Assembly (NCBI GenBank): GCA_025055595.1
Contig: JANWWU010000032.1
Span: 1-40,724 of the forward strand
Direction: 5' to 3'
Length of the DNA stretch: 40,724 nucleotides
DNA from: Planctomycetota bacterium
Lineage (GTDB): Bacteria > Planctomycetota > UBA11346
The notes below the pieces were generated by a model. That model was given only the letters and a program-made list of their open reading frames with translations. It searched no databases and was not told the origin of the DNA. The translations under genes and the position numbers were made by a program. Of this stretch, positions 7,587 to 29,045 are shown piece after piece; the stretch's first letter is position 1, and every line of letters starts with the position of its first letter.

Positions 7587-9437
<1,851 letters not shown>

Positions 9438-17957: not shown

Positions 17958-20570
17958 TCAGCCGCCCGACCAGGCCGCGCGATACAACGCGCGCAAGTCC
18001 TCGATCAGCGGCGCGCGCGGGTTGGTGCCGAGGCACTGGTCGTCGAAGGCGCGCTCCGCCAGGCTGTCGAGCGCCGCGAAGTAGGCAGCCTCGTCGACTC
18101 CCGCCTCGCGCACCGAGCCCGGCAGCTGCAGCTCGCGGCGCAGGTTCTCGACGGCTCGCGCGAGCAGCTCGCACCGCGCGCGCTCGTCGTCGCCACCGAG
18201 GCCGAGCGCTTCGGCGACCCGCGCGTAGCGCGCCGCGGCCAGGGGCCGGTCGTAGCGGGCGAAGGCGGCCTGCCGCTGTCCGGCCTCCGCGGCGTTGTAG
18301 CGGATGACCAGGGGCAGAAAGATGCCGTTCGCCACCCCGTGCGGGATGTGGAAGCGCGCGCCGAGCTGGTGCGCCAGGGCGTGGCAGACGCCGAGGAAGG
18401 CGTTGGCGAAGGCCATGCCGGCGAGCGTGGCGGCGAGGTGCACCTGTTCGCGCGCAGCGCGCGCCCGCTCGCCCTCCCGCCAGGCGGTCGGCAAGTGCGC
18501 AAAGAGCAGGCGCACCGCGTCCAGCGCCTGGCCGTCGGTGAAGGGCGTCGCGCAGACGCTGACCAGGGCCTCGAGGGCGTGCGACAGCGCATCCATGCCG
18601 CTGGCCGCCGTCAGCGCCCGCGGCTGGCGCGCGGCGAGCTCGGCGTCGACGATGGCGATGGTCGGAGTCAGCGCGTAGTCAGCGAGCGGGTACTTCACCC
18701 CATCGGGGCCAGTGATCACGGCGAACGGCGTGACCTCCGAGCCCGTGCCGCTGGTCGTCGGGATGGCGACGAACCAGGCGGCAGCGCCGAGCGGCTCCAG
18801 CCGCTGGATGCGCTGACGGATGTCCATGAAGCGCATGGCGACAGCGGCGAACGCTGCCTGCGGCTGTTCGTACAGCAGCCACATCGCCTTGGCGGCATCG
18901 ATCGGGCTGCCGCCGCCGAGCGCGACGATGGTGTCGGGACGCACAGCGCGCAGGAAAGCGGCGCCGCGCTCGACGGTCGCTAGATCTGGGTCAGGGCGTA
19001 CCTCGCTGAAGGTCTCGACGCGCAGGCCCTGCCGCTCGAGCAGCGCGCGCACCCGCCGCTCGTAGCCGAACTCGACCATCGTGCGATCGGTCACGATCAC
19101 CGCACGCTGCCGTTCGGCGAGGTCGGTCAGCGCATGCTCGAGGCAGCCCCAGCCGTGGTAGACGCGCGGCGGCACGCGGTACCACTGCATCCGTGCGCGC
19201 CGCTCGGTGACCGTGACCCGGTTGAGCAGCTGCTCGACGCCGACATTGCCGGCGAAGGCATTGCCGCCCCAGGTTCCGCAACCGAGGGTCAGCGACGGCG
19301 CCAGCCGCTGATTGTAGAGATCGCCGATCGCGCCGTGGGAGCTCGGCTGGTTGACCAGCAGCCGGGCGACCGGCACGGCGTGCGCCATCGCGCTGACGCG
19401 GTCCTGGTGGTGTTCAGCGGTGTAGATGACGGCAGTGTGGCCGAGGCCAGCGAAGGCCACCAGTTCGGCGCAGCGCGCGATGCCGGCGCGCCAGTCGCCG
19501 ACGCGGTAGAGGGCGAGCACTGGCGACAGCTTCTCCCAGCTCAGCGGTTCCTCGGGCCCGACGGCATCGGCGACCGCCATCAGCACGCGTACGCCCTCGG
19601 GCACGACGATGCCGGCTTGGCGCGCGATCGCCGCTGCCGGCTGGCCGACGATCGCCGGATTCAGCCGTTGCCCGCGCTCGTCGCGCTGCACCAGCACTGC
19701 GCGCAGGCGCTCGCGATCTTCGCCGGTGACGAGATAGGCCCCCTGCCGCGCCAGCTCGCGCAGCACGGCGTCCCAGGCCGCATCGACGATGACCAGGGCC
19801 TGCTCGGAAGCGCAGATCACCCCGTTGTCGAAGGTCTTGCTGAGCATCACCGAGGCCGCGACCTGCTGCGGATCGGCGCTCTCATCGACCAGGGCCGGAG
19901 TGTTGCCGGCGCCGACACCGATCGCCGGCTTGCCGCTGGCGTAGGCGGCCTTCACCAGGCCCGGGCCGCCGGTCGCGAGGATCAGGTCCACCGCCGGATG
20001 CCGCATCAGCGCCTGGGTCAGCGGTAGCGTCGGATTCTCGAGGCAGGCGATCAGGCCCTCGGGAGCTCCCGCCGCCGTCGCCGCCTCCGCGGCCAGCCGC
20101 GCCGCCAGCGCGGTGCAGCGTGCGGCGCGCGGGTGCGGGGCGATGACGATGCCGTTGCGCGTCTTCAAGGCGAGCAAGATCTTGAAGATCGCCGTCGAAG
20201 TCGGGTTGGTCACCGGGGTGATCGCCGCCACGACGCCGACCGGCGCGAGCACGGTGCGCACTCCAGCCACCGGATCGTAGCCGACCTCGCCGACGGTGCG
20301 CGCGTCGCGGTAGGCGTGGCAGATCGTCTCGCTCGCGAAGTGGTTCTTGATCACCTTGTCCTCGAGCACGCCCATCCCGGTCTCCTCGACCGCGGCGCGC
20401 GCCAGCTCGATCCGTGCGCGATTCATCGCCGCGGCGGTGCGGACGAAGATCTCGTCGACCTGCTCCTGCGAGAAGCCGGCATAGCGCTGGGCGGCGCGGC
20501 GCACGCCGAGCACGCAAGTCTCGAGGGCCTGCAAGGCTTCGGAGGCCTCGTGGGGATGGGCTGCGATCAT
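17958..20570 (-). CDS. adhE: Bifunctional acetaldehyde-CoA/alcohol dehydrogenase AdhE
   Basis: 870 residues, full length. It reduces acetyl-CoA to acetaldehyde and then ethanol with two NADH and usually forms spirosome filaments. The N-terminal aldehyde dehydrogenase half (1-440) has VGVVAAITPVTNPTSTAIFK, GVGAGNTPALVDESAD and the catalytic Cys in KTFDNGVICASEQ. The linker includes GTWGGNAFAGNVG. The C-terminal iron-dependent alcohol dehydrogenase half has VALGGGSPIDAAKAMW, PTTSGTGSEVTPFAVI, ALTAASGMDALSHALEA and the iron ligands in NAFLGVCHALAHQLGARFHIPHG. A strong AAGGAGG precedes the ATG. It is divergent from rex with 259 bp between them, which fits control by Rex. Reoxidising NADH as ethanol competes with the hydrogenase encoded opposite. 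Confidence 0.97.
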   Translation of the reverse strand: MIAAHPHEASEALQALETCVLGVRRAAQRYAGFSQEQVDEIFVRTAAAMNRARIELARAAVEETGMGVLEDKVIKNHFASETICHAYRDARTVGEVGYDPVAGVRTVLAPVGVVAAITPVTNPTSTAIFKILLALKTRNGIVIAPHPRAARCTALAARLAAEAATAAGAPEGLIACLENPTLPLTQALMRHPAVDLILATGGPGLVKAAYASGKPAIGVGAGNTPALVDESADPQQVAASVMLSKTFDNGVICASEQALVIVDAAWDAVLRELARQGAYLVTGEDRERLRAVLVQRDERGQRLNPAIVGQPAAAIARQAGIVVPEGVRVLMAVADAVGPEEPLSWEKLSPVLALYRVGDWRAGIARCAELVAFAGLGHTAVIYTAEHHQDRVSAMAHAVPVARLLVNQPSSHGAIGDLYNQRLAPSLTLGCGTWGGNAFAGNVGVEQLLNRVTVTERRARMQWYRVPPRVYHGWGCLEHALTDLAERQRAVIVTDRTMVEFGYERRVRALLERQGLRVETFSEVRPDPDLATVERGAAFLRAVRPDTIVALGGGSPIDAAKAMWLLYEQPQAAFAAVAMRFMDIRQRIQRLEPLGAAAWFVAIPTTSGTGSEVTPFAVITGPDGVKYPLADYALTPTIAIVDAELAARQPRALTAASGMDALSHALEALVSVCATPFTDGQALDAVRLLFAHLPTAWREGERARAAREQVHLAATLAGMAFANAFLGVCHALAHQLGARFHIPHGVANGIFLPLVIRYNAAEAGQRQAAFARYDRPLAAARYARVAEALGLGGDDERARCELLARAVENLRRELQLPGSVREAGVDEAAYFAALDSLAERAFDDQCLGTNPRAPLIEDLRALYRAAWSGG

Positions 20571-20829: not shown

Positions 20830-21471
20830 ATGATCGCCCTCATGACCCATCCCATCTCGATGCCGAGCCTGCGCCGCCTGCCATTGTATCTGCGGCTGCT
20901 CGAGCAATGGCGAGCCGCCGGCCGCACCCAGGTCAGCTGCACGCATTTCGCCGACGCCCTGGGCCTCGATCCGACCCAAGTGCGCAAGGACCTCGCGGCC
21001 GCCGGCGCCAGCGGCCGGCCGCGCGTCGGCTACGACCTCAAGCAGCTGCGCGACACCCTCGCACGCTTCCTCGGCTGGGACAATCCCGGCGAGGCCTTCC
21101 TCGTCGGCAGCGGCCCCCTCGGCCGGGCGCTGCTCGCCTACGAGGGCTTCGCCGCCCGCGGGCTGACCATCGTCGCGGTCTTCGACCGCGCTCCGGCGGC
21201 GCAGGAGCGCATCGGCGACAAGCCGGTGCTGCCGCTTTCTAAGCTGCCCGATCTCGTCCGCCGGATGCATGTGCGGATCGGCATCCTGGCGGTGCCGGCG
21301 GCCGAGGCCGAAGCGGTGGCGCGCACCATGGCCGAGGCCGGCATCCGCGGGATCTGGAACTTCGCGCCCGTCCGCCTCGACCTCGGACCGCGCATCGTCG
21401 TCGAGCACATCGATCTCGCCCAGTCGCTGGCCGTCCTGCGCCATCGGCTGGCCGCCCTGGAGGAGACATGA
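20830..21471 (+). CDS. rex: Redox-sensing transcriptional repressor Rex
   Basis: 213 residues. Rex leaves its operators when NADH is high, releasing fermentation and hydrogenase genes. The N-terminal winged helix (about 10-75) shows LPLYLRLLEQW and LGLDPTQVRKDLAAAG, the conserved recognition-helix core RKDL. The segment after it reads AAAGASGRPRVGYDL, where most Rex proteins have SYFGEFGTRGVGY, so DNA preference may differ. The NADH-binding Rossmann domain has FLVGSGPLGRALLAY near 95 and a C-terminal swapped helix. Alternative start at 20842 (MTHPIS); no strong ribosome site decides. Its stop overlaps the next start by 4 bp (ATGA), so it is co-translated with hydC, and divergent adhE is a likely target. 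Confidence 0.93.
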   Translation: MIALMTHPISMPSLRRLPLYLRLLEQWRAAGRTQVSCTHFADALGLDPTQVRKDLAAAGASGRPRVGYDLKQLRDTLARFLGWDNPGEAFLVGSGPLGRALLAYEGFAARGLTIVAVFDRAPAAQERIGDKPVLPLSKLPDLVRRMHVRIGILAVPAAEAEAVARTMAEAGIRGIWNFAPVRLDLGPRIVVEHIDLAQSLAVLRHRLAALEET

Positions 21472-21979
21472 GCACCTGCTGCGCCCCCCCATCGACGGCC
21501 GCGCGCCGCTTCGCGCGCGTCACCGAGATCCTCGCCCGGCACCGCCACGATCCGGCGGCGCTCGTCCCGATCCTGCAGGAAGTGCAGGAGGTCTACCGTT
21601 ACCTGCCCGAGGAGGTGATGGCCTACATCGCCACCGACCTCGGCCTGCCGCCGGCGCGCGTCTTCGGCGTCGCCACCTTCTACGCGCACTTCGCCCTCGC
21701 CCCCAAGGGCCGCTTCGTCATCAAGCTGTGCGACGGCACCGCCTGCCATGTCAAGGAGTCGCAGCCGATCCTCGACGCCCTGCGCCAGCGCCTCGGCCTC
21801 AGCGAGCGCAAGACCACCACCGACGACCAGCTGTTCACGGTCGAGACCGTCAGCTGCCTCGGAGCCTGCGGCCTGGCTCCGGTGATGCTGGTCAATGACG
21901 ACGTCCACGGCCAGATGACGCCGCAGTCGGCCTTGCAACTCGTCGAATCGCTGATCGCCAAGCACGCCAAGGAGACCCC

Positions 21980-21983
<4 letters not shown>
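21468..21983 (+). CDS. hydC: NADH-dependent hydrogenase subunit HydC (NuoE-like [2Fe-2S] protein)
   Basis: 171 residues. The family has an N-terminal helical bundle (PILQEVQEVYRYLPEEVMAY) and a C-terminal thioredoxin-like domain binding one [2Fe-2S] cluster through four Cys, seen here in LCDGTACHVK and VSCLGACGLAPVM. FGVATFYAHF near residue 65 is the NuoE signature. In HydABC it sits beside the flavin subunit HydB. The start overlaps rex by 4 bp and its stop overlaps hydB by 4 bp. The NDGVHGQM-like end (NDDVHGQMTP) is typical. It could also be called NuoE, but hydA downstream makes a hydrogenase subunit far more likely than complex I. Confidence 0.93.
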
Positions 21984-23872
<1,889 letters not shown>

Positions 23873-23883
23873 AAGGAGGGATC

Positions 23884-25890
23884 ATGCCGACCACCGCCAC
23901 CGCCACCTGCACGATCGACGGCCGCGAGGTCGCGATCGCTGGCCAGCGCAACCTGCTCGAGGCGATCCGCGCCAGCGGCATCGATCTGCCGACCTTCTGC
24001 TACCACTCCGAGCTCTCGGTCTATGGGGCCTGCCGGCTGTGCCTGGTCGAGATCGAGGGCCGCGGCGTGCAGGCTTCGTGCACCATCGCGCCCGAGCCGG
24101 GAATGGTCGTGCGCACCCAGACGCCGCAGCTGCGCCGCCTGCGGCGCACCAACCTCGAGCTGCTGCTCGCCAACCACCAAGGCGACTGCGCGTGCTGCGA
24201 CAAGAGCGGGTCCTGCCGCTTGCAGGACCTCGCGCTGCGCCTCGGCGCGCAGCGCGGGCGCTTCGTCCGCACCGTGCCCGAGCGCCAGCCGGATCGCTCG
24301 AGCCCGGCCGTCCACCGCGATCCCGGCAAGTGCATCCTGTGCGGCGACTGCGTCCGCGTCTGCGACGAGGTGCAGGGCATCGGCGCGCTCGACTTCGCCT
24401 TCCGCGGCGAGCGCACGGTGGTGCAGCCGGCATTCGGCAAGCCGCTGGCCGAGAGCGACTGCGTCCACTGCGGGCAGTGCAGCCGGGTGTGCCCGACCGG
24501 CGCCCTGATCCCGGCCAACGATGTCGAGCGCGCCTGGCAGGCCCTCTCCGACCCGGCGCGCTGCGTCGTGGTGCAGGTGGCGCCCGCGGTGCGGGTCGCC
24601 CTCGCCGAGGCCCTGCGCCTGCCGCCGCACGCCGACGCCCTGGGCCTGCTCGCCGCCGGCCTGCGCCGCCTCGGCGCGCACCGCGTCTACGACACCGCCT
24701 TCGCGGCCGATCTGACGGTGATCGAGGAGGGCAACGAGTTCGTGCGTCGCTGGCGGCACGGCGAGCGCCTGCCGATGTTCACCAGCTGCTGTCCGGCCTG
24801 GGTGGCCTGCGCCGAGAAGCACCTGCCAGACTGGCTGCCGCACCTGTCGAGCTGTCGCAGCCCGCAGCAGATGCTGGCCTCGGTCCTGCGCCGCCACCCC
24901 GACGCCGTCGGCGATCCGCGGCCGCTGACCGTGATCTCGATCATGCCGTGCACCGCCAAGAAGTTCGAGGCCGCGCGCGCGGAGTTCTGCCGCGACGGCC
25001 AGCCGGATGTCGACCTCGTCCTGACCACCCAGGAGGCGGCGCGCCTGCTCGCCAGCGCCGGCCTCGATGTCGCGCGGCTCGATCCCGAGCCGGCCGATCT
25101 GCCGTTCGGGCTGAAGACCGGGGCCGCCGTGCTCTTCGGCATGAGCGGCGGCGTCGCCACCGCCGTCCTGCGCTACGCGTCGGCGGTGCTCGGCGACGGC
25201 CGGCTGCGCCACCACGACTTCCGCGAGCTGCGCGACGGCGACGGCCTGCGCCTCGCCGAATGCGCGCTGGCGGGCCGCACGCTGCGCGTCGCCGCGGTCA
25301 GCGGCCTCTCGGCGGCGCGTCGCCTGCTCTCGGACCTGCGCTCCGGCCGCCTCGCCGTCGACCTCGTCGAGGTCATGGCCTGTCCGGGAGGCTGCGTCGG
25401 CGGCGCCGGCCAGCCGGTGGACCACAGCGGCGAACAGCGCCTGCGCCGCGCCCAGGCGTTGGTCGCCGCCGACCGCAGCGAGGTGATGCGGATGAGCGCG
25501 GAGAACCCCGCGGTCGGCAGGCTCTACGAGACCTGCCTCGAGCGGCCCGGCTCGCACACCGCCGAGGAGTGGCTGCACACCCGCTACCAGCCGCGGCGCC
25601 GCCTCGGCGATCTCGACCTGCTGTTCACCCAGGGCGAACGCAGCGGGCGCCTGCTGGTCCTCGCCTGCCTCGGCACCAGCTGCCACCTGCGCGGCGGCCC
25701 GCGCCTCGTCCAGCAGCTGATCGAGGCCGTCGAGGCCCGCGGTCTGCAGCAGCGCGTCGAGGTGCGCGCCACGTTCTGCCTCGAGCGCTGCGGCGAGGGG
25801 CCGAATGTGCGGGTCGGCGAGCGCCTCGTCGAGCAGGCGAGCGTCGAGCGCGTGCTGGCGGCGATCGACGAGCAGCTGGGGAACGCCTGA
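23884..25890 (+). CDS. hydA: [FeFe]-hydrogenase catalytic subunit HydA (group A, bifurcating type)
   Basis: 668 residues from the ATG at 23884 behind a strong AAAGGAGG; the longer open frame upstream is a shadow. It makes or consumes H2 at the H-cluster in the cytoplasm. N-terminal domains: NuoG-like [2Fe-2S] (FCYHSELSVYGACRLC), His/Cys [4Fe-4S] (HQGDCACCDKSGSCRL) and two [4Fe-4S] clusters (CILCGDCVRVCDE, CVHCGQCSRVCP). The H-cluster motifs are complete: TSCCPAWV with proton-relay Cys302 and ligand Cys303, MPCTAKKFE with Cys356, and MACPGGCVGGAGQP with Cys500 and Cys504. An extra C-terminal thioredoxin-like [2Fe-2S] domain (about 580-668, CLGTSCHLRG, FCLERCGEGP) matches the T. maritima-type HydA. 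Maturases HydEFG are not in the window. Confidence 0.97.
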   Translation: MPTTATATCTIDGREVAIAGQRNLLEAIRASGIDLPTFCYHSELSVYGACRLCLVEIEGRGVQASCTIAPEPGMVVRTQTPQLRRLRRTNLELLLANHQGDCACCDKSGSCRLQDLALRLGAQRGRFVRTVPERQPDRSSPAVHRDPGKCILCGDCVRVCDEVQGIGALDFAFRGERTVVQPAFGKPLAESDCVHCGQCSRVCPTGALIPANDVERAWQALSDPARCVVVQVAPAVRVALAEALRLPPHADALGLLAAGLRRLGAHRVYDTAFAADLTVIEEGNEFVRRWRHGERLPMFTSCCPAWVACAEKHLPDWLPHLSSCRSPQQMLASVLRRHPDAVGDPRPLTVISIMPCTAKKFEAARAEFCRDGQPDVDLVLTTQEAARLLASAGLDVARLDPEPADLPFGLKTGAAVLFGMSGGVATAVLRYASAVLGDGRLRHHDFRELRDGDGLRLAECALAGRTLRVAAVSGLSAARRLLSDLRSGRLAVDLVEVMACPGGCVGGAGQPVDHSGEQRLRRAQALVAADRSEVMRMSAENPAVGRLYETCLERPGSHTAEEWLHTRYQPRRRLGDLDLLFTQGERSGRLLVLACLGTSCHLRGGPRLVQQLIEAVEARGLQQRVEVRATFCLERCGEGPNVRVGERLVEQASVERVLAAIDEQLGNA

Positions 25891-26162
25891 TGCCCAAGCC
25901 GGTGATCGAGATCTGCCTCGGCTCATCGTGCTTCGCGCGCGGCAGCAACCGCTACCCGCAGGCCGCCGCCCGCTGGCTGGCGGCGCACGGCATCGCCGCC
26001 GAGCTGCGCGGCCGGCGCTGCCGCAAGGCCTGCGCCGATGGCCCGATCGTCGCGATCGACGGCGTCGAGCACCAGGTGCCGGACCTCGAGGCCCTGCACC
26101 GCGCGCTCGCCTCGCTGATCGATGCCGCGCCCCAGTCCGTCATCCAACGCAGCCGCGCATAG
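25890..26162 (+). CDS. Small thioredoxin-like [2Fe-2S] ferredoxin
   Basis: 90 residues starting MPKPVIEICLGSSCFARGSN. The four cluster cysteines are in ICLGSSCFARG and RRCRKACADGP, the layout of the NuoE C-terminal domain and of the extra domain at the end of HydA. The start overlaps the hydA stop by one base (TGATG), so translation is coupled. Similar small [2Fe-2S] proteins occur in hydrogenase operons of anaerobes. It may carry electrons between HydABC and the sensor HydS encoded next, but that is inference. It might equally be an extra HydABC subunit. Confidence 0.85.
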   Translation: MPKPVIEICLGSSCFARGSNRYPQAAARWLAAHGIAAELRGRRCRKACADGPIVAIDGVEHQVPDLEALHRALASLIDAAPQSVIQRSRA

Positions 26163-26227: not shown

Positions 26228-27904
26228 ATGGAACGACGCGCGCCCGTCAGCACCGATCCCGCGCAGTGCCAGGACTGCTACCGCTGCCTGCGCGCCTGTC
26301 CGGTGCAGGCGATCAGCGTGGCCCAGGGGCATGCGCAGGTGCGCCCCGAGGCCTGCATCGCCTGCGGGCGCTGCGTCGCCGCCTGTCCGCGGCGCGCCAA
26401 GCGCGTGCGCGACGACCTGCCGGCGGCCCGCGCCGCGGTCGCCGCCGGCAACGCGATCGCAGCGCTGGCGCCGAGCTGGGTCGCCGCCTTCCCCGGCCTC
26501 GGACCCGAGCGCTGCAGCGCGGCCCTCGCCAGGCTCGGCTTCTGCGCGGTGTCGGAGGTCGCGGTCGGCGCCAGCGCGGTCAGCGCGGCGACCGCCGAGC
26601 TGCTGCAACGCGCGCCGCAACGGCTGTGGCTGTCGACCGCCTGCCCGGCCGCCGTCGCCTGGGTGCGCCGCCACCGCCCGGAGCTGGTGCCGGCGCTGGC
26701 CCCGATCGCCTCGCCGGCCGCCGTCCACGCGCGGATGCTCGCCGCCGCCCGACCCGGCTGCCGGGTGGTCCTGATCACGCCGTGCATCGCCAAAAAGCGC
26801 GAGGCCGACGCCCACCCCGAGCTCTGGGCGGCAGCGATCTCCTTCGCCGACCTCGCGCGCTGGTGGCAGGAGGCCGGGATCAATCCCTGGACCCTGCCGC
26901 CCGGCGAGCCGTTCCTCTTCGCCGAGGACGGCGGTGGCCGACGCTACCCGCTCGAAGGCGGCATGCTGCAGAGCCTCGCCGCTCGCCATCCGCCGAGCAT
27001 GCTCGCCACGGTCAGCGGCGTCGATCACTTCGCTGCAGCCTGCGATGGCCTCGGCCAGCACGATGCCGCCACCTTCGTCGAGCTGAGCGCCTGCTCCGGC
27101 GGCTGCATCCAGGGCCCGGGCATGCCCGAAGGCGCGGGCGGGCTGCTGCGCCGCCGGCGGGCGGTGCTGCAGGCTCCGGTCCCGGAGGCGCGCGGCTGCC
27201 CGCCTGCGGTCGACACCGCCGCCCGCTGGTTCCCGGAGCCTGAGGCCACCCCCGAACCCGATGAGCGCTTCCTGATCGCCGCGCTCGAGCGCATCGGCAA
27301 GCGCCGCGCCGAGGACGAAGCCAACTGCGGGGGCTGCGGCTACGAAGCCTGCCGCGCCTTCGCGCGCGCGATGTGCGCCGGACGCGCCGAGCCCGAGCAG
27401 TGCGTGACCTGGATGCGGCGCCTGGCTCAGCGTCAGGCCAACGCCCTGCTGACCGCGATGCCCGCGGCCGCCGTCCTCGTCGACCGCCAGCTGCGGATCA
27501 TCGAGTGCAATCGCCACTTCGTGCGGCTGGCTGGCGGCGAGGAGCGCGCGTCGCCGGGGACCGCGCTCGGCGGGCCGCCGACGCTCGCCCGCCTGCTGCG
27601 CCATGTGCTCGACGGCGGATCCGAGATCGTCAACCGCGAGCTGCGCTGGGGCAGCCGGGTGCTCAGCGCCTCGCTGTTCAGCGTCGAGCCCGGACAGGTC
27701 GCCGGGGCGGTGCTGATCGACATCACCGAGCCGGCGATGGGGCGCGAACAGGTGGCGGCACGAGCGCGCGAGGCGATCGAGAAGCACCTGGCGACGGTCC
27801 AGCGCATCGCCTACCTCCTCGGCGAGAACGCGGCCGAGACCGAGGGCCTGCTGGCGCAGATCGTCGACGCCTACGCAGCGCAGGACGGCGATGGTCAGGC
27901 CTGA
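26228..27904 (+). CDS. hydS: Putative sensory [FeFe]-hydrogenase HydS (H-cluster domain plus PAS)
   Basis: 558 residues. N-terminal pair of [4Fe-4S] motifs (CQDCYRCLRACPVQA, CIACGRCVAACPRRA; about 14-58). The H-cluster domain (about 75-335) keeps all four H-cluster cysteines: Cys139 in STACPAAV, Cys186 in TPCIAKKRE, and Cys289 and Cys293 in SACSGGCIQG. The residue before Cys139 is Ala138, where catalytic hydrogenases such as HydA upstream have the proton-relay Cys; this change is typical of sensory enzymes. A further [4Fe-4S] motif (NCGGCGYEACRAFARAMCAG, about 365-390) leads to a PAS domain (about 410-510) and a helical tail. The family is thought to sense H2 or redox state. Its 3' end overlaps the phosphatase gene by 14 bp, pointing to a signalling pair. 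Confidence 0.92.
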   Translation: MERRAPVSTDPAQCQDCYRCLRACPVQAISVAQGHAQVRPEACIACGRCVAACPRRAKRVRDDLPAARAAVAAGNAIAALAPSWVAAFPGLGPERCSAALARLGFCAVSEVAVGASAVSAATAELLQRAPQRLWLSTACPAAVAWVRRHRPELVPALAPIASPAAVHARMLAAARPGCRVVLITPCIAKKREADAHPELWAAAISFADLARWWQEAGINPWTLPPGEPFLFAEDGGGRRYPLEGGMLQSLAARHPPSMLATVSGVDHFAAACDGLGQHDAATFVELSACSGGCIQGPGMPEGAGGLLRRRRAVLQAPVPEARGCPPAVDTAARWFPEPEATPEPDERFLIAALERIGKRRAEDEANCGGCGYEACRAFARAMCAGRAEPEQCVTWMRRLAQRQANALLTAMPAAAVLVDRQLRIIECNRHFVRLAGGEERASPGTALGGPPTLARLLRHVLDGGSEIVNRELRWGSRVLSASLFSVEPGQVAGAVLIDITEPAMGREQVAARAREAIEKHLATVQRIAYLLGENAAETEGLLAQIVDAYAAQDGDGQA

Positions 27905-29045
27905 ACGCTTCATCGAGGTCGGCTGGTCGCAGCGCGCCAAGCACGGCCAGCGCGTGCCCGGCGACACGATCGTCGTGCGCCGCCTGCCCGAGGAGGGTCG
28001 CCTGGTCGGGGTGCTCGCCGACGGCCTGGGCAGCGGGGTCAAGGCCGCCGTCCTGTCGACGCTGACCGCGACCATCGCGGCCCGCCACGCCGCGGTCGGC
28101 CGCGACATCCGGCGCGCCGCGGAGCTGATCGCCCGCGCCTTGCCAGTGTGCTCGGTGCGCCGCATCGGCTACTCGACCTTCACCATCGTCGATGTCGGCG
28201 ACGACGGCACGGTGTGCGCGTTCAACAGCGGCAATCCGGCGATCATCCAGGTGCGCGGCGCGGCGAGCGCGGCTGTCGGCGACGAGGGCCCCGGCCTCCA
28301 CGCCTCCGCCGTCGCCCTCGCCGAGGGCGATCGCCTGCTGGTGTGCAGCGACGGCGTGACCCAGGCCGGCATGGGCCGAGCCGACCTGCCCTTCGGCTGG
28401 GGCCTCGACGGGCTGCAGCGCTGGCTGCAGGAGCAGCTGGCCGCGCGCGCCGACGCCAGCGCCCAGGCGCTCGCCGAGGCCGTCGTCGCCGCCGCGACCG
28501 CGTACGACGGCGAGCACGCCCGCGACGACACCAGCTGCCTGGTCGTCCACCTGCGCCGGCCGCGCCACCTGACGGTGATCACCGGCCCGCCCTACGACAG
28601 CGCGCGCGACGCGGAGATCGCCGCGCTGTGCCGCGACGCCCCCGGCCGCGTCGCGATCTGCGGCGGGACCACTGCCGACATCATCGCCCGCGAGCTCGAC
28701 CGCCCGCTGATCCCCGACGACGCGCCGCCCGACCCCGAGATCCCGCCCTGCTGGCGCATGCCCGGCGTCGCCCTGGTGACCGAGGGGATGATCACGCTCG
28801 CCGCGGTGCTGCGCCTGCTCGAGGCCGGACCGCCCTGGCCGCGCGCCCAGCACGGGGCGGCGCGCCTGCTCGAGCTGCTGCTCGACAGCGACGTCATCGA
28901 CCTCGTCGTCGGCACCCGCGTCAATCCCGCGCATCAGGACCCCTCGCTGCCGGTCGAGCTCGGGATCCGCCGCAATCTGCTGCGCGCGATCGCCGCTGTC
29001 CTCGCCGAACGCTACGCGCGGGCGGTCAGCCTGCGCTTCGTCTAG
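27891..29045 (+). CDS. SpoIIE/PP2C-type serine/threonine phosphatase linked to HydS
   Basis: 384 residues. Residues 1-225 form a SpoIIE-type PP2C domain: GDTIVVRR, VLADGLGSGVKAA and LLVCSDGVTQAG with metal-binding Asp residues, and DDTSCLVV near 220. The remaining 160 residues (ICGGTTADIIARELDRPLIP, VALVTEGMITLAAVLRLLE and VVGTRVNPAHQDP) are not part of PP2C. I recall a similar C-terminal extension in phosphatases next to HydS in Clostridia, but know no function for it. The gene starts inside the end of hydS, so both proteins are made in fixed ratio. The likely role is to pass the HydS signal on by removing a phosphate from a regulator outside the window. No anti-sigma factor or antagonist gene is adjacent. 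Confidence 0.9.
   Translation: MVRPERFIEVGWSQRAKHGQRVPGDTIVVRRLPEEGRLVGVLADGLGSGVKAAVLSTLTATIAARHAAVGRDIRRAAELIARALPVCSVRRIGYSTFTIVDVGDDGTVCAFNSGNPAIIQVRGAASAAVGDEGPGLHASAVALAEGDRLLVCSDGVTQAGMGRADLPFGWGLDGLQRWLQEQLAARADASAQALAEAVVAAATAYDGEHARDDTSCLVVHLRRPRHLTVITGPPYDSARDAEIAALCRDAPGRVAICGGTTADIIARELDRPLIPDDAPPDPEIPPCWRMPGVALVTEGMITLAAVLRLLEAGPPWPRAQHGAARLLELLLDSDVIDLVVGTRVNPAHQDPSLPVELGIRRNLLRAIAAVLAERYARAVSLRFV

Follow-up and report, generated by a model that had tools for sequence, protein, structure and literature searches.

To which partner does a sensory-type [FeFe] hydrogenase pass its signal, and through which part of the protein? In fermenting anaerobes the balance of acetate plus H2 against ethanol changes with the H2 level, and the question is raised by an operon in the window, as we call the whole stretch of 40,724 nucleotides from a Planctomycetota bacterium that was analysed, where the gene of such a hydrogenase, hydS, overlaps by 14 bp the gene of a SpoIIE-type phosphatase. 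The pairing as such is already known from Ruminococcus albus (HydS and its phosphatase) and from Thermoanaerobacterium (hfsB/hfsC); an earlier, sequence-only reading of this DNA had named Clostridia, Thermotogae and ruminococci as groups in which it occurs. Beyond that reading, the present analysis describes a conserved C-terminal domain of the phosphatase, the replacement of the HydS tail by a histidine kinase in related proteins, and an adhE gene divergent to the operon. A 2026 study regards it as critical to find out which partners sensory [FeFe] hydrogenases have (PMC13104023); the strict linkage, the kinase-for-tail exchange and the C-terminal domain supply a concrete partner, an interface and a domain that can be tested. 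The exchange and the uncatalogued domain make the question of H2 signalling more testable, and this also bears on the engineering of hfsB strains for ethanol.

HydS and its operon

The hydS gene (26228–27904, + strand) encodes a protein of 558 aa, characterised by Pfam, an alignment of 31 sequences and a residue check, in which two N-terminal 4Fe-4S motifs (matching Fer4_10 in Pfam) are followed by the H-cluster domain, a C-terminal FeS motif, a PAS domain and a conserved helical tail, the last three being present as the sequence-only reading had listed them. The H-cluster ligands C139, C186, C289 and C293 are all kept and the proton-relay position is occupied by A138 in place of Cys, as had been claimed; the relay cysteine ascribed to HydA of the same operon, Cys302, is likewise found when HydA is read from the ATG at 23884 (Cys302/Cys303). 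Two further second-sphere sites at which catalytic and sensory enzymes differ, the CpI M353 and M497 positions (PMC10055695), hold T184 and S287, so that all three second-sphere residues altered in sensory enzymes are also altered in HydS. The T. maritima enzyme, TmHydS, resembles the window protein in its Ala at the relay position (A131), its Ser at the M497 position and its FeS and PAS domains (PMC10055695), and differs from it in having Gly177 where the latter has Thr184.

The C-terminal FeS motif (C367/C370/C375/C392) matches PF04060 above the cut-off (E 2.6e-8) and its four cysteines are invariant across the 31 aligned sequences, while the PAS domain is matched by PAS_8 with E 2.8e-4 and 21.1 bits, slightly under the 21.8 cut-off. 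The helical tail (residues ~505–548; 27740–27871, + strand), with the motif IAxLLGExxAETE, is proposed, from its conservation and its absence from kinase-fused versions, to be a docking linker for the phosphatase; its mean pairwise identity (0.48) exceeds that of the H-cluster domain (0.43) and of the PAS domain (0.35). Sensory (group C) [FeFe] hydrogenases are marked by H-cluster cysteines that are kept, by replacement of the relay Cys and the second-sphere Met, and by a C-terminal 4Fe-4S motif followed by PAS, and HydS carries all of these marks. A sensory-type HydS that is functionally tied to the phosphatase is supported by their linkage, matching trees and mutual presence and absence, given below. 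The protein probably detects hydrogen gas; we infer both H2 sensing and control of the phosphatase from homologous proteins and from the genetics of other species.

On the + strand the operon runs from rex, coding for a redox-sensing repressor (20830–21471; NF003994, above cut-off), through the NuoE-like hydC (21468–21983) and the NuoF-like hydB (21980–23872), both recognised by Pfam, to hydA (23884–25890; NF040763, TIGR02512, PF02906), the catalytic group A subunit of a hydABC-type operon. A small thioredoxin-like [2Fe-2S] protein gene (25890–26162; weak PF01257 match) stands directly 5' of hydS, as it does in many relatives, and hydS and the phosphatase gene are followed by a GTPase gene that we take to be bipA/typA. 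HydA itself bears an extra C-terminal thioredoxin-like [2Fe-2S] domain (25613–25887), and a second HydABC-like cluster lies elsewhere in the genome (G000:C60:2202-6107, minus strand). Beside the operon and divergent from rex is adhE (17958–20570, − strand; NF010378, 1176 bits, above cut-off), encoding a bifunctional acetaldehyde/alcohol dehydrogenase; an adhE gene is also found near the pair in R. albus (L117), and an ORF cluster resembling adhE is present in two further loci (L034 and L041). The window gene is likely a member of the regulon, and its position accords with that and with the published H2/ethanol phenotype. No Rex box of the form TTGTGAA-N4-TTCACAA was found within three mismatches across the whole window.

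HydS and the phosphatase form a tightly linked unit

HydS-like proteins were matched in 48 of the 392 genomes of the same phylum that were searched; the loci counted here come from these genomes, from plasmid records and from a single clostridial contig that is labelled viral. The phosphatase gene is the next gene after hydS in 35 of the 37 assessable loci with a PAS-type HydS, a count from which one locus ending at HydS (L052) was left out, and in 30/31 scored pairs the distance from the HydS stop to the modelled phosphatase start is −21 to +29 nt. The two exceptions are a locus in genome G232 (L054), with no adjoining phosphatase and where the gene after HydS is presumably EIIA-like, and Acetoanaerobium noterae, whose phosphatase is encoded 884 kb from HydS. 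The latter enzyme, which carries the C-terminal domain (L118:10001-11179), adjoins CoA-transferase-like genes.

The trees of the two proteins match closely (Mantel r 0.85, reached in 0 of 2000 permutations). Shared ancestry adds to this correlation, and the stronger argument for pairing is given by genomes with two pairs, in which each HydS stays with its own phosphatase clade (for example in L042, at 6983 and 16091). The pairing goes far beyond chance and recurs in dozens of genomes, so that the two genes make up a near-obligatory unit; the sequence-only reading had staked its proposal on their conserved co-occurrence in relatives, and this is what was seen. One HydA-HydS-phosphatase set, from a probable clostridium, lies at the edge of an IMG/VR contig (L115, 3300010275_000261) that also holds a recombinase and phage-like genes, and appears to be host DNA next to a probable prophage.

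The phosphatase and its C-terminal domain

The phosphatase gene (27891–29045, + strand) encodes 384 aa. Its product starts directly with a serine/threonine phosphatase domain of the SpoIIE/PP2C type (residues 1–220; 27891–28551; PF07228, SpoIIE E 4e-15 in Pfam), and no sensor or linker of its own precedes this domain. The metal-binding aspartates D25, D44, D154, D212 and D213 are all kept, and the metal-ligand Asp are invariant in the alignment. The AlphaFold2 model of the domain (pLDDT 82) is matched by Foldseek to SpoIIE (5mqh, E 2e-14), so that the PP2C fold and the metal-binding Asp that define the SpoIIE/PPM phosphatases are both present. The family and the overlap with hydS are thus as the sequence-only reading had them.

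That reading did not describe the remaining part of the protein, a C-terminal domain of about 160 residues (~222–384; 28554–29045, + strand) with the motifs TGPP, CGGTTA, (L)VTEG and VGxxxN and a mean pairwise identity (0.43) somewhat above that of the PP2C domain (0.38). With the domain of the window phosphatase as query, Pfam gave no match and a profile search of the PDB gave nothing significant (best E 0.076); it is an uncatalogued conserved domain, absent from Pfam, and no description of it was found within the papers open to search. The AlphaFold2 models were built with three sequences as input; for this domain they predict a confident Rossmann-like fold (pLDDT 88) in which the conserved motifs follow strands, and from the order of motifs and secondary structure their placement appears pocket-like. 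Foldseek returned only weak, generic Rossmann-like matches in the PDB, none below E 0.001 (best E 4.8e-3, TM 0.36), which did not serve to identify the fold, and nothing significant among viral proteins.

The same domain is found on the phosphatases of R. albus, Monoglobus and A. noterae. Of the 392 genomes 30 carry it, exactly those whose HydS has PAS and tail, against 0/18 of the genomes whose HydS-like matches lack them (Fisher 1e-13), a group in which the matches end before or just inside the PAS domain and about two may be ordinary hydrogenases and not sensors. Several of the matches to the domain on other contigs lie at contig ends.

Signal route, target and competing readings

In eight loci of the same phylum that were examined (L061–L068), the 4Fe-4S, H-cluster and FeS part of the protein is fused to a histidine kinase, recognised by eye from the HisKA-like motif ASMGQLxAGxAHExNNPLG, and the PAS domain, the tail and the phosphatase are all absent. 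One such fusion (L065:7999-10236) is followed by a radical SAM/BATS (HydE/HydG-like) ORF, and several of the eight loci contain ORFs like it. Work on RsbU has shown that PPM phosphatases are switched by helical linkers, which have been argued to be exchangeable with those of histidine kinases (PMC12143880). The replacement of PAS and tail by a kinase is the exchange expected from such a shared helical-linker toolkit (PMC12143880), and suggests that the HydS tail is a helical linker that controls the phosphatase in trans. RsbU and RsbP of B. subtilis belong to the same PP2C family, and control through a helical linker that could be interchanged with those of histidine kinases has been proposed for this type (PMC12143880); the window phosphatase differs from them in that it lacks both a linker and a sensor at its N-terminus, the end of a separate protein being the putative linker, and in its C-terminal Rossmann-like domain. 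On the simplest reading, the HydS tail would be an RsbU-like linker supplied by a separate polypeptide.

The best explanation, in which we have somewhat better than even confidence, is that HydS and the phosphatase make one split signalling unit leading from H2 through the phosphatase to a distant target. The H-cluster would bind H2 with slow turnover, as A138, T184 and S287 imply, and the change would pass through the C-terminal FeS domain and the PAS domain to the helical tail; this would dock on the phosphatase and switch the PP2C domain on or off, as the in-trans counterpart of the N-terminal coiled-coil linker of RsbU and RsbP. The active phosphatase would dephosphorylate a protein encoded elsewhere, with the C-terminal domain selecting the target or reading a second, small-molecule signal, and the expression of the fermentative hydrogenase and adhE would then track H2. 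More tentatively, the C-terminal domain might be an undescribed domain of Rossmann type that takes an input or selects the target, and that is the defining feature of H2-sensor phosphatases across phyla; the unit would then be a split two-input switch, with H2 entering in trans through the HydS linker and the C-terminal domain responding to a metabolite or to a docked target.

Genetic data come from the hfsABCD cluster of Thermoanaerobacterium, which, like the window, encodes a HydS with PAS and a serine phosphatase, there tied genetically to adhE expression (PMC5707799, PMC11837493). In T. saccharolyticum, deletion of the HydS homologue hfsB raised adhE 2-3 fold and increased ethanol, and no such rise was seen on deletion of the phosphatase gene hfsC, of hfsD or of the whole hfsABCD (PMC5707799); no clean hfsB hfsC double mutant was found in the text consulted. 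In R. albus, co-culture with an H2 consumer lowered the cluster of adhE, catalytic hydrogenase and HydS 111-fold (PMC6776011). Taken together these data suggest a restraint of the phosphatase by HydS, which H2, or loss of HydS, would release. Several observations count against the split unit: the HydS of L054 and that of A. noterae have no phosphatase beside them, no Rex box was found in the window, hfsD behaves like hfsC (PMC5707799), and the C-terminal cluster of TamHydS stays unreduced under 1 atm H2, which makes a redox relay through that cluster doubtful, though TamHydS has no PAS domain (PMC13104023).

A classical partner switch, in which the phosphatase would dephosphorylate a distant RsbV-like STAS protein and so release a sigma factor that an RsbW-like kinase holds, with HydS doing no more than tune the activity, is rather unlikely but is the foremost of the alternatives. 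A PP2C domain of SpoIIE/RsbU type is in keeping with it, as is the genome, which encodes RsbW-like ATPases, STAS proteins, other SpoIIE phosphatases and an orphan single-domain RsbV-like STAS with a conserved Ser (G000:C105:11670-11960). Against this, the ORF clusters that recur near the pair included none recognisable as STAS or RsbW, the co-encoded or specifically co-occurring STAS and RsbW of an RsbU-V-W system were not found, and at least one other SpoIIE phosphatase of the genome (on C52) adjoins RsbW/STAS genes of its own. The orphan STAS was rejected as a specific partner, being found irrespective of HydS (matched in 21/23 genomes of the class, pair present or not). As no anti-sigma antagonist recurs in the pair loci, any such target is encoded elsewhere, which agrees with the distant target that the sequence-only reading had deduced from an antagonist-free operon. 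In the search it had called for, of genes that co-occur with the pair, the only recurring ORF clusters to be recognised were those of rex, adhE, hydABC, the [2Fe-2S] protein and a second hydrogenase, and no recurring third gene qualified as the target.

Less probable still is a HydS that works as a slow catalytic hydrogenase or redox valve and is fed by the [2Fe-2S] protein, with the phosphatase answering a redox or metabolite signal through its C-terminal domain and not H2. HydS-type enzymes do turn over H2 (PMC10055695), the [2Fe-2S] gene often stands just before hydS, and the predicted Rossmann-like domain has conserved, ligand-pocket-like loops at strand ends; the full set of sensory second-sphere changes in HydS argues against it, and the histidine kinase swap points toward signalling. 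The FHA-sigma54 activator at 7587–9437, which had been put forward as the endpoint, has an FHA domain and lies on the same contig 18 kb off, but it is a very improbable read-out, since full-length homologues occur with and without the pair (7/9 and at least 10/14 genomes of the class, respectively) and do not lie near HydS in other genomes.

For the split unit, the closest described counterpart compared here is the pair on plasmid pRUMAL01 of R. albus 7 (RUMAL_RS17375/RS17380), whose proteins are about 28-31% identical to those of the window. Gene order (with an 8 nt overlap), HydS domains, the phosphatase C-terminal domain and the presence of rex and adhE in the cluster are shared with the window. 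It differs in that HydS has a Cys before the first H-cluster ligand (ISSCC) where the window has Ala138, the downstream gene encodes a separate hydrogenase-like protein, and two [2Fe-2S] genes and a kinase-fold (APH/RIO) gene lie upstream. No equivalent of the kinase-fold gene was found in the window operon; in R. albus it immediately precedes the [2Fe-2S] and HydS genes (L117:7040-7789), and its product is a possible candidate for an opposing kinase.
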